The notes under the pieces: generated by a model | Database searches by the model: none | What the model was told of the DNA's origin: nothing | What the model saw: the letters and a program-made list of their open reading frames with translations, nothing else | In this document: positions 17,475-55,889 of the stretch, one piece after another | Position numbering within the stretch: position 1 is the stretch's first letter | Layout: the number at the start of each line of letters is the position of its first letter | Assembly: GCF_001999945.1 (NCBI RefSeq) | Contig: NZ_CP019650.1 | Location: 3,777,501-3,841,500 of the forward strand | Direction: 5' to 3' | From: Microbulbifer agarilyticus | Lineage (GTDB): Bacteria; Pseudomonadota; Gammaproteobacteria; Pseudomonadales; Cellvibrionaceae | DNA: 64,000 nucleotides | Position numbers and translations under genes: made by a program

Positions 17475-17504
17475 GCGGCCAAGAAGCAAGACGCGAAGAC
17501 AAAA

Positions 17505-17563
17505 CGCCGGGCAAAGAATTATAGGGGGCCGCCTGGCCCGGCCCTGAAAATCCTTGCCCGGCG
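17505..17563. terminator. Nested hairpin between convergent kinase and GGDEF/EAL genes
   Basis: Outer arms CGCCGGGCAA (17505-17514) and TTGCCCGGCG (17554-17563) pair perfectly, and a second G+C-rich hairpin GGGCCG...CGGCCC sits inside. It is placed between two converging 3' ends and probably ends both transcripts. It lacks the core sequence of the palindrome family found elsewhere in the window. Confidence 0.5.
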
Positions 17564-17615
17564 CCTTGCCGCCAGCACAAGAACTTCGACCCTATCCAAG
17601 CGGTAGTTTGATAGA

Positions 17616-25157: not shown

Positions 25158-26501
25158 ATGTTTGAAAAAATTCTGATTGCCAACCGCGGCGAAATTGCCC
25201 TGCGGGTGCTGCGCGCCTGTAAAGAAATGGGCATCGCCACGGTAGCGGTACACTCGCAGGTTGACCGCGATCTCAAGCACGTACGCCTGGCGGATGAAGC
25301 CGTATGTATCGGCCCCAACCCATCCCCCCAGAGCTACCTGAATATCCCCGCGATCATCGCGGCGATGGAAATTACCGATTCCGTAGCGGTGCATCCGGGA
25401 TACGGCTTTCTCGCTGAGAATGCGGATTTTGCCGAGCAGGTACAGAAAAGCGGCTTTACCTTTATTGGCCCGGACGCGGACGTGATTCGCCTGATGGGTG
25501 ACAAGGTTTCCGCAATCGCCGCCATGAAGAAAGCTGGCGTACCTACGGTACCGGGTTCTGACGGCCCGCTGCCGGACGATGGTGAGCGCTGCCTGGAAAT
25601 CGCACGCAAGATCGGTTTCCCAGTCATTATCAAGGCGGCTGCCGGTGGTGGTGGCCGCGGTATGCGCGTGGTACACAGCGAAGGAGCACTGGTAAATTCC
25701 ATCGCGGTAACCAAGTCCGAAGCCGCTGCCGCGTTTGGCGACAGCACCGTCTATATGGAGAAATTCCTGCAGAATCCGCGTCACGTGGAGATCCAGATAA
25801 TGTCCGACGGACAGGGCAGCGCCGTGCATTTTGGTGATCGCGACTGCTCACTGCAGCGCCGCCACCAGAAGGTTCTGGAAGAAGCACCCGCGCCCGGCAT
25901 TCCGGATGCGGTACGCAAGGAAGTACAGGACTCCTGTATTCAGGCATGTATCGATATCGGCTACCGCGGTGCCGGTACTTTCGAGTTCCTGTACGAAGAC
26001 GAGCGTTTCTACTTCATCGAGATGAACACCCGTATTCAGGTTGAGCATCCAGTATCGGAAATGGTGACTGGCGTTGACCTGATTAAAGAGCAGATCCGCG
26101 TATGTGCGGGTGAGAAGCTCTCTTTCAAACAGGAAGACATCAAGATTACCGGTCACTCGTTCGAGTGTCGTATTAACGCGGAAGACCCGAAGACCTTCTT
26201 CCCGAGCCCGGGCAAGGTGGAAAACTTCCACGCACCCGGTGGTTTGGGCGTACGTGTGGACTCCCACTTGTACGCGGGCTACTCGGTACCGCCCAACTAC
26301 GATTCCATGATCGCCAAGATCATCACCCACGCGGAAGACCGTGAAACTGCACTGGCGCGGATGCGTGTCGCCCTCAGCGAAACCATCATCACCGGTATCA
26401 AAACCAACATTCCTTTGCAGGAAGACCTGGTTCGGGATGCGGAATTTGCCAAGGGTGGGGTGAACATTCACTACCTAGAGAAGAAGCTGGGGCTCGAATA
26501 A
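25158..26501 (+). CDS. accC: Biotin carboxylase subunit of acetyl-CoA carboxylase
   Basis: ATP-grasp enzyme that carboxylates biotin on AccB. The 447 residues start [20 protein letters not shown] and contain [14 protein letters not shown] (ATP loop), [17 protein letters not shown] and [16 protein letters not shown] (catalytic region). The ATG at 25158 matches family starts; a longer frame overlaps accB. The gene is followed by a terminator and two large palindromic elements. Confidence 0.97.
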
Positions 26502-26518
26502 GCCCTGTGACCTCTCCA

Positions 26519-26561
26519 CCCGCCCCGAAGGTATTTCGCTCTGAAGTACCTCCGGGGCGGG
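26519..26561 (+). terminator. Hairpin downstream of accC
   Basis: CCCGCCCCGAAGGTA (26519-26533) pairs with TACCTCCGGGGCGGG (26547-26561) with one mismatch: a 15-bp stem beginning 18 bases after the accC stop. There is no U run. It abuts the first palindromic element, so the whole 26519-26857 stretch is potentially folded. Confidence 0.5.
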
Positions 26562-26667
26562 AAAGCACCGGGGATCGGTTTTCAAAACCGCTGTGAACCC
26601 ATCCCTGGGCGCTGCGGCGGCGACGTCCTGTCGCCGACGCTTTTGAAAACCGCCCCCCGGCGCTTCC
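26561..26667 (+). repeat. Nested palindromic element A1 (type II)
   Basis: Outer arms 26561-26587 and 26641-26667 pair at 23 of 27 positions (inner part CGGTTTTCAAAA). Next to the left arm comes the family core GTGAACCCATCCCTGGG (26593-26609) and CGCTGCGG; an inner hairpin GGCGAC/GTCGCC spans 26619-26635. Same plan as five other elements in this window. Plus orientation by the core. Located in the accC-prmA spacer in tandem with A2. Confidence 0.8.
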
Positions 26668-26755
26668 CCTTCAGTCTTTCCCCTCCTACCCTGAAAGCAC
26701 CACCGCTCTATTGCCACGTTCTAGTAGAATACGCTGAATTTTGAAGAGAAGGATT

Positions 26756-26857
26756 CGCTGCCGGTATGGCCCTGCGAGACCTTCTAAAACAGGGACGTTT
26801 TAGAAGAGCCCCCATGGATGGGTTCACGGCGTGTCTCGCAGGGCCATACCGGCAGCG
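26756..26857 (-). repeat. Nested palindromic element A2 (type I)
   Basis: Outer arms 26756-26780 and 26833-26857 pair perfectly over 25 bases, ending in GCGAGAC/GTCTCGC. The inner hairpin CTTCTAAAAC/GTTTTAGAAG (26781-26806) is also perfect. The core on the minus strand is CCGTGAACCCATCCATGGGG, one base different from the other copies. Opposite orientation to A1, 88 bases away. A TAGAAT box at 26725-26730 between A1 and A2 could belong to a prmA promoter. Confidence 0.85.
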
Positions 26858-26908
26858 GAGCCGCCACGGAAGCACTTAACAACGACCCACATTACCGGAC
26901 CAAACTAC

Positions 26909-27793
26909 ATGCCCTGGCTCCAGCTACGAGTAAACACCAACCGCGAACAAGCCGAGAAGATTGAAAATGCTCTGCTATTCGCCGGCGCCGTATCCGTCAC
27001 CCTGCAAGACAATGCCGACCAGCCCATCCTCGAACCCGGCCTCGGCGAGACGCCCCTGTGGGACGAAACCCTCGTCACCGGCCTGTTCGATGCAGAGGTC
27101 GACACCGGCATAACCGAAGCCAAAGCGGCCTCGTTCCTGTGTGAACTCCTCCCCAACGCCCGCTGGGAGCAGCTCGAAGACAAGGACTGGGAACGGGAGT
27201 GGATGAGTAACTACAAGCCCATTCAGTGCGCCGATAACCTGTGGATCTGCCCGAGCTGGTGCGAACCGCCCGCGCCGGATGCCGTTAACATCGTTCTCGA
27301 CCCGGGCTTGGCTTTCGGCACCGGCACCCACCCGACTACCTTCTTATGCTTACAATGGCTCGCCGGTGAAGCAGTGCAGGGCAAGACTGCCATCGATTTC
27401 GGCTGTGGCTCCGGCATTCTGGGTATCGCCGCCATTTTGCTGGGTGCCGAGAGCGCCCTGGGTACCGATATCGACCCCCAGGCACTCATCGCCAGCCGCG
27501 ACAATGCGGTGCGCAACGGCCTCGAACCGGAGCGCTTCCCGGTCTACCTACCGGAGAAAACACCGGCAGATGCCAGTGCAGACATCATGCTCGCCAACAT
27601 CCTCGCCGGCCCGCTGGTGGAACTGGCCCCGCAACTGGTGGAGCGCACCAAGGTCGGCGGCCGCATCTGCCTGTCCGGGATTCTGGCGAGCCAGTCTGAC
27701 AAGGTAAAAACCGCCTATAGCCAGTGGATCGATTTCGATGCAGATGGTGAAAAGGAAGAGTGGGTCCGCCTGAGCGGAACCCGCGTCAGATAA
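26909..27793 (+). CDS. prmA: Ribosomal protein L11 methyltransferase
   Basis: SAM-dependent trimethylation of ribosomal protein L11. The 294 residues start MPWLQLRVNTNREQAEKIEN, with VLDPGLAFGTGTHPTT and the SAM loop DFGCGSGILGIAA, then MLANILAGPLVELAP. The ATG at 26909 matches family starts; an upstream in-frame ATG at 26831 lies inside palindromic element A2 and is not preferred. The following order DUF3426-dusB-fis is the usual one in this lineage. Confidence 0.95.
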   Translation: MPWLQLRVNTNREQAEKIENALLFAGAVSVTLQDNADQPILEPGLGETPLWDETLVTGLFDAEVDTGITEAKAASFLCELLPNARWEQLEDKDWEREWMSNYKPIQCADNLWICPSWCEPPAPDAVNIVLDPGLAFGTGTHPTTFLCLQWLAGEAVQGKTAIDFGCGSGILGIAAILLGAESALGTDIDPQALIASRDNAVRNGLEPERFPVYLPEKTPADASADIMLANILAGPLVELAPQLVERTKVGGRICLSGILASQSDKVKTAYSQWIDFDADGEKEEWVRLSGTRVR

Positions 27794-27892
27794 ACCACGG
27801 AGTGCGCAACGCCGCAACTGAGACGCCTCAGACTACGCGGCGGGCCTCACGACTGATAAACTCCCACGCCAAAGCAATAATCGTCGAAATCC

Positions 27893-29179
27893 ATGTCGCA
27901 ACTGGTTACCCGCTGCCCCCACTGCAGCACCTCGTTTCACGTCAGCGAACCTCAGCTGCGCGCCGCCCGTGGTGCCGTGCGCTGCGGCTCCTGCCTGCAA
28001 GTATTCCGTGCAGACGAAAATATCGTATTCAACGAGGACGATGCGCAGCCAGCCAACAAAAAGGCCATCGAGGAGCTGCTGGAAGATGACGACTTCCTGA
28101 TCCACGACGATATCGATCTGGATGGCGACGACCAGGCTGGGGACGAGGCCCAGGCGGATTCAGCAAAGACAGCCCCCAAGCAAGCTGCAGCCGATAAAGC
28201 CGCCACCCCGCAAAAGAGCGACAATCAAAACGACAACCCACTGATCGACGATGCCTTTGGCGAACAGCAGTGGCAGGAGCTCGGCAGTGAAGACGACGAT
28301 GACCGACAGGGCGACCTGCTGGACCTGAACAGTGGGCTCGACCGGATTGGCGACACATCGGACAACCCCTGGGCGGAAGAAATGGCCAGGGAGGAGTCCA
28401 GTAATATCCACTCTGGCAGCGCCAAGCAGTCGGAAGATGATCTGTTCGCCGAGCAGTTCGCAGCAACGGAGGACACCGACCCCGCCGAGCATGAAGAACT
28501 AATTGCCTGCCCGGCAGAAGCCCCCGTTAACGATGATGACCTGGTGCCACTGCCTGACATTCAGCTGCCCCCCTCTGAAATGAGTGCACGGCACCTGGAT
28601 TCCGGCCAACTGGAATCGGCGCCACTGCTACCCAAAGACCAGCTGATCTCATCCATCGGCGCCGCGCCGATCGAAATGTCCTGGCAGCCCAAACGGCACC
28701 ACATTATCCCAACTTGGCTGTGGGCCCTCGGTAGCTTGCTATTGATGCTGGGGCTGGCGGCGCAGATCGCCTACTTCGGCTTCGACACCCTCAGCAAGCG
28801 CGAACCCTGGCGCAACCTCTACGCCCAGGTATGCCCGTACATCGGCTGTAAACTGCCGGCGCAGGTGGACATAAATTCGATTCACACCGCTAACCTGGTG
28901 GTGCGCAGCCACCCCTCGATTCCCGGCGCCCTCGCCGTAGAGGCGGTTCTGCTCAACCGCGCACCATTCGACCAGCCCTTCCCCAGCCTGCAGCTGCGCT
29001 TCACCGACCTGAAGAACAGCCCGGTGGCGAGCCGCCGCTTCAGTCCGCGGGATTACCTGCGCGGTGAACTGTCCGGCCGACGGCTGATGCCCGCTGGCAA
29101 CCCGGTGCATATCGCGCTGGACATCGTCGACCCGGGCGCGGACGCGGTGAATTACGAGCTGCGAATCGCCCCGAACTGA
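27893..29179 (+). CDS. Zinc-ribbon plus DUF3426 membrane protein
   Basis: 428 residues, function unknown. An N-terminal MJ0042-type zinc ribbon has C8xxC11 and C31xxC34 (RCPHCSTSFHVSE, RCGSCLQVFRA). A long acidic low-complexity region (about 45-250, many Asp/Glu runs) leads to one membrane helix (about 270-293) and a periplasmic DUF3426 domain with PGALAVEAVLLNRAPFDQPFPSLQLRF. Found between prmA and dusB in Pseudomonas and relatives, so its presence here is part of a conserved order. Confidence 0.88.
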   Translation: MSQLVTRCPHCSTSFHVSEPQLRAARGAVRCGSCLQVFRADENIVFNEDDAQPANKKAIEELLEDDDFLIHDDIDLDGDDQAGDEAQADSAKTAPKQAAADKAATPQKSDNQNDNPLIDDAFGEQQWQELGSEDDDDRQGDLLDLNSGLDRIGDTSDNPWAEEMAREESSNIHSGSAKQSEDDLFAEQFAATEDTDPAEHEELIACPAEAPVNDDDLVPLPDIQLPPSEMSARHLDSGQLESAPLLPKDQLISSIGAAPIEMSWQPKRHHIIPTWLWALGSLLLMLGLAAQIAYFGFDTLSKREPWRNLYAQVCPYIGCKLPAQVDINSIHTANLVVRSHPSIPGALAVEAVLLNRAPFDQPFPSLQLRFTDLKNSPVASRRFSPRDYLRGELSGRRLMPAGNPVHIALDIVDPGADAVNYELRIAPN

Positions 29180-29358
29180 GTCCGCGGCGAACATGGCGGT
29201 GCAGAAGCGGAAGGCGCAAAAATGCGCGCTATGGCGCATATTGCTACAAACTGTTGCACAAAGTTCGTCCCAAACGGCCAGCCATCGACCAATTTGAGCG
29301 CTTTTTCGCTTTTCCAGTGGGCAGGCAGCCGCTATCATAGGCGGCTCTTTGACACCTG

Positions 29359-30396
29359 ATGAGACCAAACCCGCGGGAGGGTGTGTTGCCCACGGAACTG
29401 CCAAGCAGCTTCGCCATAGGCCCCTATAACATCGGAGCGCCAGTTATCCTGGCGCCCATGGCCGGCGTTACCGATCGCCCCTTCCGCAAATTGTGCCGTG
29501 AACTCGGTGCCGGCTTGGTCGTATCCGAGATGGTCACCTCCGACACCAGCCTGTGGAACAGTCGCAAATCACGTATGCGTCTGAATCACGCCGGCGAGGC
29601 GGGGCCGATTTCGGTGCAGATTGCTGGTGGCGATCCGGAGATGATGGCGGAAGCTGCACGTGCAAACGTCGAGCGCGGCGCCCAGATCATCGATATCAAC
29701 ATGGGTTGCCCGGCAAAGAAGGTGTGCAAAAAAGCAGCGGGTTCTGCCCTGCTGCGCGATGAGAAACTGGTCGCCGATATCCTGCAGGCAGTGGTTTCCT
29801 CGGTTCCGGTTCCAGTGACGCTGAAAATTCGCACTGGCTGGTGCCCGGATTCCCGCAACGGGGTAACGGTGGCCAAGATGGCCGAAGATTTCGGGATTTC
29901 TGCACTGGCAGTTCACGGACGCACCCGCGCCTGTGGCTACCATGGTCAGGCCGAATTCGATACCATTGCCGAGATTGTGTCGGCGGTGAAGATACCTGTC
30001 TTTGCCAATGGCGACATATCTGGCGCGGAGAAGGCCCGCAAGGTGTTGGACTACACCGGCGCCAAAGCGGTCATGATTGGCCGTGCGGCTCAGGGACGTC
30101 CATGGATATTTCGGGAGATTGCTCACTACCTCGCAAAGGGGGAGCACCTACCGGAGCCCTCACTGGATGAAGTCAGGGACATATTAATCACTCACTTGAG
30201 TGAACTGCACCGTTTCTACGGTGAGGTTATGGGGGTACGTATCGCCCGTAAACATGTGGGTTGGTACGTAAAGACTCTCGCGGACAGCGAAGAGTTTCGT
30301 AAAGCCTTTAACCGAATAGATAGCGCAGAAGCACAACATGCCAGCGTTCGTGAGTGGTTTGAACGCCGAATAACTAGAGGGGCAAAAGCGGCATGA
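29359..30396 (+). CDS. dusB: tRNA-dihydrouridine synthase B
   Basis: FMN/NADPH enzyme reducing a uridine in tRNA. Motifs: [18 protein letters not shown] (FMN site), [21 protein letters not shown] with the catalytic Cys of [11 protein letters not shown], and [12 protein letters not shown]. The ATG at 29359 gives 345 residues, but a TATCAT box at 29333-29338 would leave only about 14 bases of leader; a TTG at 29386 with GGAGG five bases upstream (starting [17 protein letters not shown]) is a strong alternative. Overlaps fis by four bases (ATGA), so the two are translationally coupled as in most gammaproteobacteria. Confidence 0.95.
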
Positions 30397-30692
30397 CTAA
30401 CGAAGCATTAATTCCGGATACCAGCGATGTGGTGTCCACTGGGGGCCAGACTCAACTACAGCAACCGCAAGCCTTGCGCGATGCAGTTGAGCACGCGATG
30501 GAAAACTACTTCCGCCACCTGGACGGACAGATGGTAACCGACGTGTACGATATGGTGCTGTCTGAGATTGAAGCACCTATGCTGGAAGTGGTGATGAAGC
30601 ACACCCGCCACAATCAGACCCGCGCAGCGCAGCTGCTGGGCCTCAACCGGGGCACCCTGCGCAAGAAGCTTAAGCGCTACGGCCTGCTGTAA
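30393..30692 (+). CDS. fis: DNA-binding protein Fis
   Basis: Nucleoid-associated dimeric regulator of rRNA, supercoiling and many promoters. The 99 residues end in the hallmark helix-turn-helix [29 protein letters not shown]. Start ATG overlaps the dusB stop. A strong hairpin at 30741-30773 closes the dusB-fis unit. Confidence 0.97.
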
Positions 30693-30740
30693 GGCAGCCA
30701 ACCGCTCCAGGCAGCCTTAGCCGGAGCGGCAAAAATTCGA

Positions 30741-30773
30741 CGAGGGGGGATGAGCTGAGCTCATCCCCCCTCG
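30741..30773 (+). terminator. fis terminator hairpin
   Basis: CGAGGGGGGATGAG, loop CTGAG, CTCATCCCCCCTCG: a perfect 14-bp stem, followed by CTATTTGTATTT. A weak U-rich tail follows. It separates fis from purH and could also act as an attenuator in the purH leader. Confidence 0.7.
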
Positions 30774-30832
30774 CTATTTGTATTTCCAACGTTTTTAACC
30801 TGCTCTTTACACATCTGAATGGACGATGCGAT

Positions 30833-32407
30833 ATGACTGACAAGGTGGCCGTTCGCCGCGCGCTGATCAGCGTTTCCGATAAAACCGGCATTGTGGAGTT
30901 TGCCCGCGAGCTCTCCGCCATGGGCGTAGAGATTCTCTCTACCGGTGGTACCTACCGCCAGCTGGGCGAAGCCGGCATCCCGGTTGTGGAAGTTTCCGAT
31001 TACACCGGCTTCCCGGAAATGATGGACGGTCGCGTTAAGACCCTGCACCCGAAAGTGCACGGCGGCATCCTGGGCCGTCGCGGCAAAGACGACGTGGTAA
31101 TGGACGAACACGGCATCAAGCCCATCGATATGGTTGTGGTGAACCTGTACCCGTTCAAGGCCACCGTCGCTGACCCCAACTGCGACCTGCCCACCGCCAT
31201 CGAAAATATCGACATCGGCGGCCCCACCATGGTCCGCTCCGCGGCCAAGAACCACAAAGATGTGGCCATCGTGGTTAACGCGCACAGCTATGACACCGTG
31301 ATCGAAGAGATGAAAGCCAACGACGGCGCGCTCGGTTACGAAACCCGCTATGACCTAATGGTGCAGGCGTTCGAACACACCGCCCAGTACGACGGTATGA
31401 TCGCCAACCACTTCGGCGCGCGTAACACCAAGAACGAAGCCCGCGAATTCCCGAACACCTTCAATACCCAGTTCGAGAAAGCCCAGGACATGCGCTACGG
31501 CGAGAACCCGCACCAGAAAGCGGCCTTCTACGTAGAAGCAGACGCAACCGAAGCTTCTGTATCCACCGCCAGCCAGCTGCAAGGTAAGGAACTGTCCTTC
31601 AACAACGTCGCCGACACCGACGCCGCACTGGAAACCGTCAAACTGTTCGACGAGCCGGCCTGTGTGATCGTCAAGCACGCCAACCCCTGTGGTGTTGCCG
31701 TTGCTGCGGACATCAAGACCGCCTACGAACTGGCCTTCGCCACCGACCCGGAATCCGCATTCGGCGGCATCATCGCCTTCAACCGCGAGCTGGACGCCGA
31801 AACTGCCCAGCTGATCGTCGACAAGCAGTTCTCCGAAGTCATCATCGCGCCGAAGGTCAGCGCCGAAGCCGCCCAGGCCGTATCCGCCAAGAAAAACGTC
31901 CGCCTGCTGGAATGTGGTGAGTGGAGCACAGACCGCCCCGCCGCCTTCGACTACAAGCGCGTAACCGGTGGCTTGCTGGTACAGGAAAAAGACAACGGCA
32001 TGGTTGCCAAGGAAGACCTCAAGGTGGTCACCAAGGTACAACCGTCGGAAGAACAGCTGGACGAACTGCTGTTCGCGTGGAAGGTGGCCAAGATGGTTAA
32101 ATCCAATGCCATCATCTACGCCAAAGACGGCCGCACCATCGGTGTTGGCGCCGGCCAGATGAGCCGCGTCAACTCCGCGCGTATCGCCGCAATCAAGGCT
32201 GAACACGCGGGCCTCGAAGTTAAAGGCGCGGTTATGGCATCTGACGCCTTCTTCCCCTTCCGCGACGGCATCGACAACGCCGCCAAGGTAGGCATCAGCG
32301 CTGTAATCCAGCCCGGCGGCTCCATGCGTGACGAAGAAGTGATCGCAGCAGCCGACGAGCACGGCATGGCGATGGTATTTACCGGAATGCGTCACTTCCG
32401 CCACTGA
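30833..32407 (+). CDS. purH: Bifunctional AICAR transformylase / IMP cyclohydrolase
   Basis: Last two steps of de novo IMP synthesis. The 524 residues contain the N-terminal cyclohydrolase domain ([45 protein letters not shown]) and C-terminal transformylase domain ([23 protein letters not shown] with catalytic KH, and ending [19 protein letters not shown]). Near-perfect family match. It is followed by a hairpin and a palindromic element before purD. Confidence 0.97.
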
Positions 32408-32437
32408 TAACGTCACGCAAACGACGACTGTTGTAAT

Positions 32438-32465
32438 GACTCTGCAGTAAACAACTTGCAGAGTC
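32438..32465 (+). terminator. Hairpin downstream of purH
   Basis: GACTCTGCA (32438-32446) and TGCAGAGTC (32457-32465) pair perfectly across a 10-base loop, 31 bases after the purH stop. No U tract. Lies just ahead of palindromic element B. Confidence 0.45.
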
Positions 32466-32474
32466 AGACGCGAA

Positions 32475-32587
32475 GGGGCTGTGGCTGGCGACCTTTCGCG
32501 AGACCGTCTGCGGCCTGGATGGCCGCAGCCGAGCCCCCAGGGATGGGTTTACGGCGTGTCTCGCGAAAGGTCGCCAGCCATAGCCCC
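32475..32587 (-). repeat. Nested palindromic element B (type I)
   Basis: Outer arms of 30 bases (32475-32504 and 32558-32587) pair at 29 positions, the exception being a G-T pair; they end in GCGAGAC/GTCTCGC like elements A2 and C. The inner hairpin CTGCGGCC/GGCCGCAG (32508-32528) is perfect. The core on the minus strand is CCGTAAACCCATCCCTGGGG. It fills most of the 288-base purH-purD spacer, in which no gene was seen. Confidence 0.85.
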
Positions 32588-32695
32588 GCCACGGACTGGC
32601 CAGGTACTTTTCCCCTGACGCCAGTAGAGCAGCAGTTGAACTCATCTGAATGCTAAACTAGCCCACCTAAATCACAGGCACGGGGAAACTCAAGA

Positions 32696-33991
32696 ATGAA
32701 CATCCTGGTAATCGGCTCTGGTGGCCGCGAACACGCACTGGCCTGGAAGGCCGCCCAAAACCCCGCCGTAGACACCGTCTTCGTCGCGCCGGGCAACGCC
32801 GGCACCGCCCACGAATCCAAAGTCCAGAACGTCAACATCGGCGTCGACAACTTCTCTGCCCTCTCCGATCTGGTGGAAGAAAAAGGCATCGACCTCACCA
32901 TCGTTGGCCCTGAAGCCCCGCTGGTTGACGGCATCGTCGACTTCTTTAACAGTCGCGGCCACAACATCTTTGGCCCGGAAAAAGCCGCAGCGCAGCTGGA
33001 AGGCTCCAAAGCCTTCACCAAAGAATTCCTCGAGCGCCACGCCATCCCCACCGCTGCCTACCAGAACTTCACCGAGATCGAGCCCGCGCTCGAGTACATC
33101 CGTGAACAGGGCGCGCCCATCGTGGTTAAAGCCGACGGCCTCGCCGCGGGTAAAGGCGTGATCGTTGCCGAAACCGTAGAACAAGCCGAGCTGGCCGTGC
33201 GCGATATGCTCTCTGGCAACGCCTTCGGCGACGCCGGCTGCCGCGTAGTGATCGAGGAATTCCTCACCGGCGAAGAAGCCAGCTTCATCGTGATGGTGGA
33301 CGGAGAAAACATCCTGCCGATGGCCACCAGCCAGGACCACAAACGTGTCGGCGACGGCGACACCGGCCCCAACACCGGCGGCATGGGCGCCTACTCCCCG
33401 GCTCCGGTAGTGACCCAGGACGTGTACCAGCGCATCATGGACGAAGTGATCGAGCCCACCGTGAAAGGCCTCGCCTCCGAAGGCATGCCCTACACCGGTT
33501 TCCTGTACGCGGGCCTGATGATCAATGAAGAGGGCACCCCCAAGGTCATCGAATACAACTGCCGCTTCGGCGACCCAGAAACCCAGCCGATCATGATGCG
33601 CCTGAAGTCCGACCTGGTTGACCTGTGCATGGCCGCAGTGGAAAAGCGCCTGGATCAGGTCACCGCAGAGTGGGATTCCCGCCCGGCACTGGGCGTCGTA
33701 CTGGCAGCCAATGGCTACCCGGGCAGCTACCGCAAGGGTGATGCAATTTCCGGCCTGGACAAAGCGGATAGCGAGAACGCCAAAGTTTTCCAGGCAGGCA
33801 CTGCGCTCGACGGCGAACGCGTGGTAACCAGCGGCGGTCGCGTGCTCTGCGCCACTGCCCTGGGTGACACGGTGGCCGACGCCCAGAAGAATGCCTACGA
33901 GTGCGCCAGCAAGATTTACTGGGAAGGCGTCTTCTACCGCAAGGACATCGGTTACCGCGCAATCGAGCGCGAGCAGCCGACCGAAGCCTAA
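32696..33991 (+). CDS. purD: Phosphoribosylamine-glycine ligase
   Basis: ATP-grasp enzyme, second step of purine synthesis. The 431 residues start [18 protein letters not shown] and show [40 protein letters not shown] and [14 protein letters not shown], all family signatures. Purine genes purH and purD are separated by palindromic element B rather than being tightly packed. Confidence 0.97.
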
Positions 33992-34043
33992 TTGCCCTCG
34001 CGAAACGAAGCGGAAAAGCTACAAAGCTAAAGAGGAACGCACC

Positions 34044-34691
34044 TTGAGCAGTCACCGCCAATTGACCGGACTCGACCGCCTGCTGCTGCAGGCGGACCGC
34101 GCCCTGCGCACCCTGAGCCCCGGCCCCCCCTGTCACGAGCGCCCGTCACCCGCGAAAGCGGTGGATGAAGCGGAGCTTTCCGACGGTGAGCGCCGCCATG
34201 CGGCGGGGCTGATGCGGGTCAATCACAGCGGTGAAGTTTGCGCCCAAGCCTTGTACCAGGGCCAGGCGCTGACCGCCAAGTTGCCCGAGGTGCGCGCGGA
34301 GATGGAGCACGCCGCGGACGAAGAAATCGACCACCTGGCGTGGTGCGAGCAACGTCTGGATGAACTGGGCAGCCGCCCCAGCGTGCTCAATCCGCTCTGG
34401 TACGGCATGTCCTTCGGTATCGGCGCTGCCGCCGGCAAGATCAGTGACAAGGTCAGCCTCGGCTTTCTCGCCGCTACCGAAGAGCAGGTGTGTAAGCACT
34501 TGGAAGGCCATCTGCAGGAACTGCCTGAGCAGGATGAAAAGAGCCGCGCGGTGGTGGAGCAGATGCTGGTGGATGAGGCCAAGCATCAACATGCAGCGCT
34601 GGAAGCCGGCGGGGCACGCTTCCCCGGCCCGGTTAAAGGTTTGATGACACTGGTTTCTAAGGCGATGACTTCGGTCAGCTACCGTTTGTAG
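34044..34691 (+). CDS. coq7: 2-polyprenyl-3-methyl-6-methoxy-1,4-benzoquinone monooxygenase
   Basis: Di-iron hydroxylase of ubiquinone synthesis. The 215-residue protein from the TTG start begins [20 protein letters not shown], as in Pseudomonas Coq7; the TTG has AAAGAGG eight bases upstream. Iron-ligand motifs are present: [29 protein letters not shown] (ExxH) and [15 protein letters not shown] (ExxH). An upstream in-frame opening overlaps purD and is rejected. Two palindromic elements follow. Confidence 0.93.
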
Positions 34692-34711
34692 TACCTCTGT
34701 GGCGGTTGCGC

Positions 34712-34809
34712 CGCCGGGTAGGCTTTTGCGAGACACGCCGTGAACCCATCCCTGGGGGCTCCTCTAAAACATCCTTGTTTTAGAGGGTCTCGCAAAAGCC
34801 TACCCGGCG
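34712..34809 (+). repeat. Nested palindromic element C (type I)
   Basis: Outer arms 34712-34734 and 34787-34809 pair perfectly over 23 bases and end in GCGAGAC/GTCTCGC. The core CCGTGAACCCATCCCTGGGG follows the left arm; the inner hairpin CTCTAAAACA/TGTTTTAGAG (34762-34785) is perfect and shares CTAAAAC with element A2. Begins 20 bases after the coq7 stop in a convergent spacer. Confidence 0.87.
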
Positions 34810-34864
34810 TCACAACCTTCGCCCTAACCAGACGCACTACGAAGTGCAACTGGTCTAAGCGAAG

Positions 34865-34974
34865 CAGGAGTGTCGGTGGGAAGGTTTCAAAAGCGTCGGC
34901 GACAGGGATGTCGCCGACGCAGCGTACATGGACGTATTCACAGCGGTTTTGAAACCTTCCCGCCGACGCTCCTG
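34865..34974 (-). repeat. Nested palindromic element D (type II, variant core)
   Basis: Outer arms 34865-34892 and 34947-34974 pair at 26 of 28 positions. The inner hairpin GCGTCGGCGACA/TGTCGCCGACGC (34893-34920) has a perfect 12-bp stem. On the minus strand the core is GCTGTGAATACGTCCATGTA: GTGAA and the CGCTG flank are kept but the middle has drifted from CCCATCCCTGGG. Opposite orientation to C, 55 bases away. Together C and D fill the 307-base coq7-FAH spacer, where no gene was seen. Confidence 0.8.
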
Positions 34975-34998
34975 TGCCCCAGAATCAGCTCAAAAACC

Positions 34999-35661
34999 TC
35001 AAACCACCTCAGTCTCGCAGCGAAGCCAGTCCTCTTCGAGCCCCATCGCGATACGATCCCCAACCAACAACTCCCCCACACCCGCCGGCGTGCCGGTAAG
35101 CACTACATCTCCCGGCATCAGGGTGAAGTACTCACTGATATACGCCACCAGATCCAGAATCGGCGTCAGCATATGGTTGGACTTACCCCGCTGGCGGATC
35201 TCGTCGTTCAGCCACAGGGTGTAAGTCAGGTTGTCCCAATCCGGCAACCAGTCCAGCTTCACAAACGGCGATAGCGGGCAGGCTCCATCAAATCCCTTGG
35301 CTTTCTCCCACGGCTGTCCCTTGGCTTTCAGGTCCGACTGTAACTCCCGCAGCGTGAGGTCCAGGGCCAATCCAAGCCCGGCAATCGCCCCCGGTACGTC
35401 GCCGGGGTTGGCATCGGTCAGGCGCTCGCCAATCAATAGCGCCAGCTCCCCCTCGAAGTGACAGCTACCGCGGCCACGGGGAAGGTGAACCGGCTGCGCC
35501 ATCGGCACCACTGAAGTCGCCGGCTTGATAAACAGCAGCGGCTCGTCCGGAATCGGGTTATTCAGTTCCTCCGCATGCGCCGCATAGTTGCGTCCGACGC
35601 ACACAATTTTGCCAAGAGGCAGGTCGACCGGGGTATTGCAGGTAAATTCGTGTTGATACAT
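34999..35661 (-). CDS. Fumarylacetoacetase-fold hydrolase (FAHD1/YcgM-like)
   Basis: 220-residue metal-dependent enzyme of the FAH superfamily. Motifs: KIVCVGRNYAAHAEELNNP, PLLFIKPATS, CHFEGELALLIGERL (metal-binding Glu pair), and PGDVVLTGTPAGVGEL. This compact form resembles FAHD1/YcgM proteins, which act on oxaloacetate or acylpyruvates as decarboxylase, tautomerase or hydrolase; which activity applies cannot be read from sequence. Divergent from serA. Confidence 0.88.
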   Translation of the reverse strand: MYQHEFTCNTPVDLPLGKIVCVGRNYAAHAEELNNPIPDEPLLFIKPATSVVPMAQPVHLPRGRGSCHFEGELALLIGERLTDANPGDVPGAIAGLGLALDLTLRELQSDLKAKGQPWEKAKGFDGACPLSPFVKLDWLPDWDNLTYTLWLNDEIRQRGKSNHMLTPILDLVAYISEYFTLMPGDVVLTGTPAGVGELLVGDRIAMGLEEDWLRCETEVV

Positions 35662-53318: not shown

Positions 53319-55889
53319 TTAGAAATCGTGGTTTAAGCTCATGTAGTAGAAGCTACCCTGCCAATCCACCACGGTGTCCGATGCGTACAGCGCACCGCAG
53401 CAATAATCACCCAACGCATCCTTTTCCGGGTACTCGTCAAAGATATTACGGCCACCGAGACTCACATTGGTGTTGTCGGTGATGTGGTATTTACCTTCCA
53501 AATCGACTTGTACCACCGGATCGTAGGTCTGGTAGATCAAGCCACTATCGGAGCCTTGCGAGTTTTTGTAGCTGCCATACCAGTTCGCACGTGCCATAAA
53601 GGACAGCGCACCAAAATCGTGAGTTGCAGTTACCGCGCCGCGTAGCGTTGGCTCAAAGTTTTCGAAATCATACTGGTCTTCATCGTTCAGATAATCCGAT
53701 GGATCCGAAGTGAATTCTGACTGGTTGTAATTCACTGAGGCGGTAAGGTTGGTTGTGCTGTCATTGGCCCAGCTTAGCGGGTAAGTAGCGACCAGATCGA
53801 CACCCTGCGTACGGGTATCAAACGCATTGCTAAAATAGAAAACCCCACCAATGGATTCGGCACCAACCACGCCCGCATCGACAAGCGCCAGATAATTGTC
53901 GTAAGCCGAGCCACTTTCGCTATCGGCCGATACATCCAGGGTAGAGATCGCATAGGTGCGGTCATCAACATCGATGCGATAGAAATCGATGGTCAAACTG
54001 AGAGCGTCGAAGTCTGCCGTCATGCCAAAGGTAAAGTTCGTGGAAGTCTCCGGCTTGAGCGGCTGCGCGCCCAGGGCGGCAGCGACATCGCTACTGGCCG
54101 GGAACAGACCGGTGGCAACCGGGAAGCCATTCGGCAGGCGGGTAGAGACATTGGTGGTACCTTGCTGGCCCGGAGTGGGAGCACGGAAGCCAGTGCCGAT
54201 GGACGAGCGCAGGCCAATGGTATCGGTCACGTCGTACTGCATGGCAAGTTTGCCAACCAGCTCGGAATCAAAATCGGAGTAATCCTCAAAGCGCACCGCC
54301 GCCTGCACAAACAATTGATCGGACAGATCCGTGCTCAAGTCGCCATACACCGCGTAGGAGTCACGGGAATAGCTACCGCTGTACTCCGGCGCGTATCCGG
54401 GGAAACCATTTGAGCCGACGCCCACTACTGTATACACCGGGTCGCCACCGTCCAGGCTACAGTCCAGGGTTGAACCATTATCGATAACGCCCTGACCCGC
54501 GGCCGTCGGCGTACCATCTGCGCTACAGAAGCCCCATGGATCCTGAGTCGCGTAGGGCCCTGCAGTGTAGGAATCGACATCGCCGCCACTCAGTTCATAA
54601 GACTCGTCCATATAGCTGAAGCCAAAGGCCGCAACCACATCACTGGGCAGGCCGATGCTTAACTCTTTGGAGAAATCTGCCTGAATCTGAATTTCTTCAT
54701 TGGCCAGTGTCCCGGGGTTAAACTCTGTTGGACTGTCGGGACCCATGGATGGGTTGATGGTATTTTTCAGGGTGTACGCAACTTCCGAGTAACCATAACG
54801 CGCACTGTAATCGTACAGCAGTCCCGAGGCTGTCTCGCCTTTTATCCCGGACGCTGCTGAATAGTCGGTGACGTCGCCGGAAAATCGTGGGGTAAAGCCG
54901 CCCGGGAATTTTTCCAGCGGGCTGTAAATGGCACCATCTTCGGTACGAAGATCCATAATGGTGCCATTATTTGGGTAACGATAGTAAAAACTGCCATCGG
55001 CTTCGCTTTCGGAGTAGTTACCAAACGCATACAGCTCCATGCCGTCGGCAATATCGTAGCCGGCGTTAAAGAACATGCGCGCGGCTTCCGCATTTGGCTG
55101 CCCCCAAGGCTGCACCACGTCGCCTTCCAATGACGCATTTTTTGCCGCCTCGATAAATTCTGGATCCTGCTCTTCCAAGCAGAACCAATTTTCGCAGTAC
55201 TGCTCACTGCGGGAAGTGAAGTCTTGCTGCGAGATCTCTCCCGAAATACTCAGGAAACCTGCACTACCCAGAGGCATGCCGACATTGCCAGTTGCAGTGG
55301 ACTGGAAACCATCACCTTCACTGTATTCACCGGTACGAAATCCAAAAGAACCGCCTTCGTCATTGTCCTTCAGGATAAAGTTGATCACACCCGCGATCGC
55401 GTCCGAGCCATATTGTGCAGCCGCACCATCACGCAGTACCTCAACCGACTTCAAAGCGGAGCTGGGAATGGTTGCAATGTCCGGGCCCTGGGTACCGGAC
55501 CCACCAATTTCCACCAGTGCCGCGCGATGGCGACGTTTTGAATTTACCAGTACTAGGGTTTTGTCCGTTGGCATGCCCCGCAACTGCGCCGGACGGATAA
55601 AGGTTCCACCATCGCTAATTGGCTGTCGGGATACGTTGTAGGAAGGAACCAGTGTTTTCAGTACATCGTTTGTATCCGTGTGCGATACCGACTCCAGTGC
55701 CTCGCTGCCAAACACGTCCACCGGCACCGGCGAATCTGAAACCGAGCGCGGCTTCCCCCTTACGCCGGTTACCGCGACCTCTTCGATTTCTTCCGCCACA
55801 ATTGGCGCGCTGGGTGCCATCGCGCTACCGGCGATAACGGCGACTACTGCACAGCTAAGAGACTTCTGTTTAAGAGACTGTCGTTTCAT
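53319..55889 (-). CDS. TonB-dependent outer-membrane receptor
   Basis: 856 residues from the ATG at 55889 (AGGGG upstream). Signal peptide, then a plug domain (SVSDSPVPVDVFGSEALESV, IRPAQLRGMPTDKTLVLVNSKRRHRAAL, SVEVLRDGAAAQYGSDAIAGVINFIL) and a 22-strand barrel with the usual aromatic C-terminus (SFYYMSLNHDF). EEVAVTGVRG near the mature start resembles a TonB box. It has the look of large marine receptors for peptides or glycans rather than a siderophore receptor, but substrate cannot be read. Divergent from the DUF2884 gene, convergent with the Tat aminotransferase. Confidence 0.93.
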   Translation of the reverse strand: MKRQSLKQKSLSCAVVAVIAGSAMAPSAPIVAEEIEEVAVTGVRGKPRSVSDSPVPVDVFGSEALESVSHTDTNDVLKTLVPSYNVSRQPISDGGTFIRPAQLRGMPTDKTLVLVNSKRRHRAALVEIGGSGTQGPDIATIPSSALKSVEVLRDGAAAQYGSDAIAGVINFILKDNDEGGSFGFRTGEYSEGDGFQSTATGNVGMPLGSAGFLSISGEISQQDFTSRSEQYCENWFCLEEQDPEFIEAAKNASLEGDVVQPWGQPNAEAARMFFNAGYDIADGMELYAFGNYSESEADGSFYYRYPNNGTIMDLRTEDGAIYSPLEKFPGGFTPRFSGDVTDYSAASGIKGETASGLLYDYSARYGYSEVAYTLKNTINPSMGPDSPTEFNPGTLANEEIQIQADFSKELSIGLPSDVVAAFGFSYMDESYELSGGDVDSYTAGPYATQDPWGFCSADGTPTAAGQGVIDNGSTLDCSLDGGDPVYTVVGVGSNGFPGYAPEYSGSYSRDSYAVYGDLSTDLSDQLFVQAAVRFEDYSDFDSELVGKLAMQYDVTDTIGLRSSIGTGFRAPTPGQQGTTNVSTRLPNGFPVATGLFPASSDVAAALGAQPLKPETSTNFTFGMTADFDALSLTIDFYRIDVDDRTYAISTLDVSADSESGSAYDNYLALVDAGVVGAESIGGVFYFSNAFDTRTQGVDLVATYPLSWANDSTTNLTASVNYNQSEFTSDPSDYLNDEDQYDFENFEPTLRGAVTATHDFGALSFMARANWYGSYKNSQGSDSGLIYQTYDPVVQVDLEGKYHITDNTNVSLGGRNIFDEYPEKDALGDYCCGALYASDTVVDWQGSFYYMSLNHDF

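Follow-up and report, generated by a model that had tools for sequence, protein, structure and literature searches.

Background

CsrA/RsmA is a global regulator, and its known antagonists are dedicated sponge RNAs. A role in protection from exonucleases has been hypothesised for another kind of sequence, the REPs. In the available part of PMC7652899 the SELEX consensus of CsrA is given as RUACARGGAUGU, the hexaloop of RsmE as ANGGAN and the repeat of CsrB as CAGGA(U/A/C)G, and a CsrA dimer is said to bridge two sites if 10-63 nt separate them, working best at distances above 18 nt. The same text reports that the SELEX hairpins mostly had four or fewer contiguous pairs and suggests that very stable structure is disadvantageous (PMC7652899). 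TwoAYGGAY RNA (RF01731) and Bacillaceae-1 (RF01690, reverse strand) have two hairpins with CsrA-type loops and are predicted CsrA binders, according to the available text of PMC4333381. REPs are 20-40 bp long and have GTGG at one end in some families, according to the portion of PMC3733652 that is available.

The repeat described here shares features with several of these systems and differs from each. It is like the sponge RNAs CsrB, CsrC and RsmX/Y/Z in that its GGA hairpins are repeated and have loops of the CAGGA(U/A/C)G or ANGGAN type, but unlike them it has two hairpins per unit and occurs as about 70 dispersed copies within inverted-repeat arms. With TwoAYGGAY and Bacillaceae-1 it shares two hairpins with CsrA-type loops. 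Like REPs, BIMEs and REPINs with their RAYT, the elements are intergenic, present in many copies and found in inverted pairs, with a GTGG-like end in the genome studied, but they are about 120 bp long, have a twin-hairpin core and showed no link to a RAYT in that genome.

A repeat family with fixed ends

The window, by which we mean the whole stretch of 64,000 nucleotides of Microbulbifer agarilyticus DNA that was analysed, had been described in a first-pass annotation as holding six elements of one plan, with a long outer arm, a single-stranded core, an inner hairpin and a closing arm. All six were recovered by a covariance model, R1, with E ≤ 3.8e-26, five of the six having belonged to its training set. 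The loci had been placed correctly but the limits were drawn slightly too short, the real elements being 118-123 bp long with fixed ends. These ends read GTGGCGG...CCTTC on the strand used in that annotation, in an alignment of 45 copies. Six of the 45 are 133-135 bp long and carry an extra internal, GCTAGGCGCCCCCC-like stretch. We distinguish two subtypes, named A and B here, that differ in their inner arms and inner hairpins. The features in the window, with their strand, and one copy elsewhere in the genome are as follows.

17495-17575, (+): decayed remnant, 81 bp; R1 37.8 bits, and synteny
26554-26672, GGA strand (-): element 1, subtype A, in the accC-prmA spacer; R1 115.8 bits
26598-26609, (-): core hairpin of element 1, the "core" of the first-pass annotation, RNA CCC[AGGGAT]GGG; from sequence, pattern and fold
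26619-26635, (-): inner hairpin of element 1, RNA loop C[AGGAC]G; from sequence and hairpin list
26748-26867, (+): element 2, subtype B, inverted partner of element 1; R1 117.0 bits
26781-26806, (+): inner hairpin of element 2, RNA C[AGGGAC]G; from sequence and hairpin list
26811-26822, (+): core hairpin of element 2, RNA CCC[ATGGAT]GGG; from sequence and hairpin list
32472-32592, (+): element 3, subtype B; R1 111.5 bits
34699-34820, (-): element 4, subtype B, first of an inverted pair; R1 113.9 bits
34861-34980, (+): element 5, subtype A, with the variant core GTACATGGACGTATTCAC, second of the pair; R1 98.8 bits
62758-62876, (-): element 6, subtype A; R1 117.8 bits
Genome position 3270472: diverged copy; R1 match

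The search with R1, which was built from the 45 aligned copies, showed that this nested-palindrome repeat has about 73 separate copies in the 4.26-Mb genome. The list of 94 matches is made up of 72 at 70 bits or more, the diverged copy, the remnant and 20 opposite-strand duplicates of those loci. In the window the core motif with up to three mismatches has six matches, compared with 0.13 expected from shuffles, and five of them are elements. The sixth (54742-54758) was taken as a chance match because no inverted repeat is close by, and it probably sits in coding sequence. The 14-base core has 46 exact matches in the genome, 45 of which are elements, as against none for the reversed control pattern. 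The core that had been called fixed is not quite so, because the element at 34861 has a variant that the three-mismatch pattern misses. We regard the existence of the element and the conservation of its structure as nearly certain. The GCTAGGCGCCCCCC-like stretch lies 5' of the core in copies of both subtypes (e.g. G000:C1:517460, 1762922, 3083413, 3149023 and 3902942) and can pair with core bases in some folds. A separate hairpin with 19-bp arms (window 26519-26561) abuts element 1.

The first-pass annotation knew of no named family, and in agreement with this no Rfam family reached its gathering threshold in the whole window and only sub-threshold matches were found in 26450-26950. RF01731 and RF01690 were absent among the matches with E ≤ 5 in 26450-26950 on both strands, and RF01731 had none at gathering threshold in the window. 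No description of the repeat was found among the papers listed on palindromic and miniature inverted repeats, CsrA/RsmA, TwoAYGGAY and Microbulbifer, and in the available part of PMC9788540 the CsrA-related sRNAs of Alcanivorax are described without such a repeat. A search of plasmids with the accC-prmA tandem pair gave no match.

Fold, covariation and strand

It had been claimed that the arms are specific to each copy and yet pair within it, and that the fold itself is under selection. Both claims hold. On the strand used for them, 90.3% of the pair cells form in the 45 copies compared with 71.5% after shuffling, and the covariation check found changes on both sides at 25 of the 26 outer-arm pairs. 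The strand, on the other hand, was chosen wrongly. The other strand, which we call the GGA strand, folds more stably in 71 of the 73 copies (mean difference -7.6 kcal/mol; for element 1, -74.3 as against -69.1 kcal/mol) and is favoured by wobble pairs, and on it what had been taken for a single-stranded core forms a hairpin whose loop carries GGA. Folding energies range from -54 to -99 kcal/mol, with 66 of the 73 copies at -70 or lower. For 65 of the 73 copies, a set without the six long copies, the diverged one and a short one, 91.9% of pairs form on the GGA strand compared with 70.0% after shuffling and 37 of 43 pairs have changed on both sides, the structure tested being derived from the same alignment.

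The wobble-type cells are nearly all A-C on the first-pass strand, which is G-U on the GGA strand. Purely DNA-level pairing, a reading drawn from the rarity of G-T on the first-pass strand, was dropped for this reason. Arm wobbles counted on the GGA strand and on the other strand were 119 and 3 in the genome studied (70 of 72 copies parsed) and 43 and 4 in orthologues (27 of 29 parsed). Most of the excess in the genome studied comes from the part of the arm outside the inner 18 pairs, where the counts are 96 and 0 and many of the wobbles fall at shared places; within the inner 18 pairs they are 23 and 3. Outside the genus the counts were 71 and 22 (55 of 74 parsed), with 34 elements favouring the GGA strand and six the other, in an ungapped, drop-off count; a gapped count gave 147 versus 183, the opposite direction, because it ran into flanking DNA. 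A second set from other genomes, picked by the GGA-strand model, had a weak strand difference of 33 versus 23. The strand bias of the wobbles suggests that a molecule derived from a single strand is involved, and it suits RNA and single-stranded DNA alike. Wobbles are rare, at 33 of the 1439 cells compared when copies from other genomes were aligned; in this low rate, which counts against the CsrA reading, the elements look like perfect DNA palindromes.

Two GGA hairpins at a fixed spacing

Read along the GGA strand, the module begins with an arm and the inner hairpin; an AGC linker then leads to the core hairpin, which has a UUCAC bulge on its 3' side, and a second arm closes the unit. GGA is present in both hairpin loops in nearly all copies. 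The core stem alternates between CCC/GGG and UAC/GUA while its loop is kept, and there are two-sided stem changes in 16 of 65 copies. The inner stems are of several unrelated sequences and mostly 7-12 bp long; they exceed the stems of the SELEX hairpins, which counts against the CsrA reading. Of the 73 copies, 65 contain two C-N(0-2)-GGA-N-G motifs, with a spacing of 22-24 nt in 63 and of 14 nt in two. The motif is likewise doubled in 30 of the 34 copies taken from other genomes, always at 22-24 nt (one fragment of 35 was dropped). This spacing falls within the 10-63 nt over which a CsrA dimer bridges two sites. The hairpin form, C-A-N-G-G-A-N-G, is of the CsrA/RsmA recognition type, some being one base shorter, and most copies, although not all, have the hairpin-loop GGA of the ANGGAN or CAGGA(U/A/C)G type found in CsrA/RsmA-binding RNA. 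The sequence ACANGGANGU is present in 32 of the 73 copies and in 22 of the 34 from other genomes, and the exact SELEX consensus RUACARGGAUGU in four and five, respectively. Among non-element hairpins with stems of at least 7 bp, in the window and in blocks from seven relatives, GGA/TCC loops were not in excess (14 of 262, below the 10% expected). The sponge-RNA families RF00166 and RF00195 had no match in the genome studied and passed their cut-offs in none of 38 genomes, among the candidates scored.

A csrA gene was found in 54 of 58 genomes including the one studied. Eight congeners (G003, G004, G006, G008, G009, G013, G029 and G036) have 5-19 csrA-like matches, most others having one, and the R1 matches in these eight number 1, 1, 46, 2, 5, 11, 1 and 3, at most 11 in all but one. 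We draw no conclusion as to an inverse relation between csrA copies and elements because the six csrA-rich genomes in the prmA tree form two groups, and because G007, G010, G018 and G030, with no or one csrA match, also have 0-2 R1 matches. The eight csrA-rich congeners are probably related lineages, which confounds the comparison.

Genomic context

Fifty-one copies lie between tandem genes, 26 in sense and 25 in antisense orientation, or 20 and 19 when single copies alone are counted, on rough ORF calls that penalised overlap with the element. Seventeen copies are between convergent genes and five between divergent genes. When the overlap penalty is lifted, the overlap with called genes is at most 30% for 63 of the 73 copies, as against 33 of 365 random windows. 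The random orientation together with the very stable stems speaks against simple cis regulation, and since there is no orientation bias we do not claim a cis element that depends on gene direction. A terminator had been among the roles suggested earlier. However, a T-tract follows the element in none of the 73 copies on the GGA strand and in eight on the core strand, and a terminator scan of 26300-35300 gave none at the five elements there; the role of intrinsic terminator is therefore rejected. Scanning the same region for the sigma-70 consensus gave no promoter-like site at these five elements. As for their distribution along the chromosome, 33 of the 73 copies are within about 0.5 Mb by the replication origin (G000:C1:3800000-4255625 and 1-50000; the dnaA gene runs across the contig ends), and 30 of these are on the same side.

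Occurrence in other genomes and possible mobility

R1 matches were found in 39 of 58 genomes including the one studied, namely in 35 of 37 of the genus and four of 21 others, and 25 genus members have at least 18; in these per-genome counts 62 is the ceiling of candidates scored and both strands of one palindrome may count. An exact-core scan of GTDB genomes found at least 119 stretches. Among the core matches listed are Stenotrophomonas, Xanthomonas, Halomonas, Alteromonas, Shewanella, Rheinheimera, Marinobacter, Methylotuvimicrobium and others, the genera named being, we presume, all Gammaproteobacteria. A second model, R2, built from the GGA strand of 65 copies of the genome studied, matched 34 of 185 genomes of the class, the one studied included, and 13 of 150 genomes sampled from the phylum, all 13 from the same class or nearer. 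All matches so far, among the genomes listed or sampled, are thus in one class. A single genome-specific expansion, which had been considered at the outset, is excluded because copies are found in other genera. For 35 matches at 32 loci in other genomes, 95.3% of pairs form compared with 55.3% after shuffling and 40 of 43 pairs have changed on both sides, in an alignment fitted to the model. It is the RNA-like module, and not the ends of the repeat, that is conserved between distant genomes of the class.

Two distant genomes carry the module in a different setting. In G092 it is inside near-identical units of 209 bp (up to 99%), most of which sit in differing sequence contexts. Terminal inverted repeats enclose the module in these units; 19 bp of them are perfect, and 21 of the first 22 positions match. 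The pattern of these ends has 111 matches with up to two mismatches, and there is also a 102-bp version of the unit without the module. From one G092 subfamily to another, the arms vary in paired blocks. The units end in CTA...TAG with no outer duplication, which could mean a TA duplication at CTAG, as in IS630-type elements. In G124 the module is carried by inverted-repeat units of 232 bp; a GCGGTGCAKGGATGCACCGC-like extra hairpin with a GGA loop stands beside several of them (L350, L351, L353, L355 and L356). Terminal inverted repeats and recent copies without a gene, as in MITEs, were found in G092 and G124 only. The earlier statement that the copies are too different for MITEs fails in these two genomes, where the module is inside multi-copy MITE-like units. 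The likeness consists in the G092 units of about 209 bp with 19-bp terminal inverted repeats and in the 232-bp units of G124, but unlike in MITEs the conserved part of the repeat is an RNA-like module, and the outer repeats differ between hosts.

Close pairs of elements are inverted in 10 of 10 cases. The sole Y1 transposase match of the genome studied (353909) has no element within the 2.2 kb examined and the nearest copies are more than 45 kb away; G011, G021 and G035 have 49, 44 and 19 R1 matches and no Y1 match. Mobilisation of the REP/RAYT kind was set aside, no RAYT gene flanked by copies being found in the genome studied.

Possible function and alternative explanations

We lean towards the view that this is a mobile-looking nested-palindrome repeat whose centre is an RNA module with two candidate CsrA/RsmA-type docking hairpins. 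No other single explanation accounts as well for the loops, the spacing and the class as a twin CsrA-type docking site does, and we hold such a site to be somewhat probable. On this account the GGA-strand RNA would be made by transcription, mainly by read-through from neighbouring genes, the long arms would hold both hairpins side by side, and one CsrA dimer would clamp both GGA loops. The arm sequence would be free to change because only the pairing matters, and whole-arm changes may arise partly by template switching within the palindrome. Collectively the copies could serve as a reservoir or sponge for CsrA that is distributed over the genome, and they may also have a local effect on the mRNA that contains them. 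Because the orientation is random, our guess is that they act as a distributed sponge rather than as a local switch. More tentatively, the elements may be a family of mobile CsrA-docking modules that spreads intergenically throughout the Gammaproteobacteria, its copies buffering free CsrA and its insertions putting neighbouring transcripts under CsrA control; this wider proposal we think possible rather than probable.

The main rival to CsrA docking is that the hairpins work as single-stranded DNA, the folded GGA strand being the substrate of a one-strand transposase or recombinase (HUH/Y1 or similar) and the loops its recognition bases. The many copies, the conserved ends, the consistent inversion of close pairs, and the strand-specific wobbles in arms that are otherwise near-perfect Watson-Crick would all agree with this, as would the GTGG at one end that some REP families also have (available part of PMC3733652). 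We nevertheless regard it as unlikely. No element is near the Y1 match at 353909 and three element-bearing genomes have no Y1 match, the perfect 19-bp terminal inverted repeats of G092 fit a DDE-type transposase better, and a CsrA consensus in both loops at a fixed spacing is not something that such a substrate predicts.

Two other explanations do without CsrA. It is rather improbable, in our estimate, that the element is simply an RNA barrier, a very stable stem at the gene end that shields the upstream mRNA from exonucleases. Stability alone leaves the kept GGA loops, the fixed spacing and the conserved UUCAC bulge unexplained, even though the folding energies (-54 to -99 kcal/mol, 66 of 73 copies at -70 or lower), the intergenic bias (63 of 73 versus 33 of 365 random windows) and the small number of copies in divergent spacers (5 of 73) are what a barrier would show. 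That the palindrome is passive, its arms kept paired solely by template-switch correction with no selected function, would explain the low wobble rate and why orthologous arms differ and yet pair within each copy; but such correction would preserve neither non-palindromic loops and linkers in distant genomes nor strand-biased wobbles, and we consider it very improbable. If the docking of CsrA is true, then a large, rapidly evolving reservoir of dozens of intergenic repeats per genome has been left out of models of CsrA titration, many Gammaproteobacteria may have dozens of unrecognised mobile-looking CsrA docking sites each, and a repeat that resembles structural filler would gain a testable regulatory role.

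Orthologous sites in relatives

R1 matches one or more times at 14 of 29 other prmA loci and not at all at the remaining 15. The accC-prmA pair is present in the same place and orientation in eight of the 29 (G024, G020, G019, G026, G017, G001, G014 and G002), and at a ninth locus, that of G025, the contig end cuts at the pair site. There are insertions or partial copies among the accC-prmA pairs of G019, G002 and G014. Two GGA motifs are present in 30 of 34 orthologous copies, five from the genome studied included. Element 3 has an orthologue in all seven relatives compared, with both flanking genes aligned and 88-91% identical. Its 5' arms are 54-92% identical between genomes and self-folding in each, and the inner stems differ. 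The element-2 match in G019 is a fragment, so the minimum arm identity of 0.42 was not used, and this fragment and the G019 pair at elements 4/5 were left out of the arm comparison.

The element 4/5 pair is common to G024 and G020 and was not found beside the aligned left gene in four other relatives. When the G019 pair is compared with window 34699-34980, the members match best when swapped (75-86% versus 57-66%). A whole-pair inversion is likelier for this reason, and a change of subtype at this site was rejected on the same ground; the pair has probably been flipped as a unit in G019, as judged from these identities, and such a flip fits recombination between inverted repeats, as expected. 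At the site of the remnant (17495-17575) there are 120-bp elements in G020, G026 and G002, matches of 162 bp and 96 bp in G024 and G014, and none in G019 and G017. Sites have also been gained or lost, one site 3' of prmA being occupied in G024 and G020 only among the eight genomes shown and another in G024 only. Within the genus, presence and absence could be compared at two sites, where the junctions are too diverged to give a precise target. Insertions inside the inner hairpin are seen in the accC-prmA element of G002 and, in G092, in L368 and L360.
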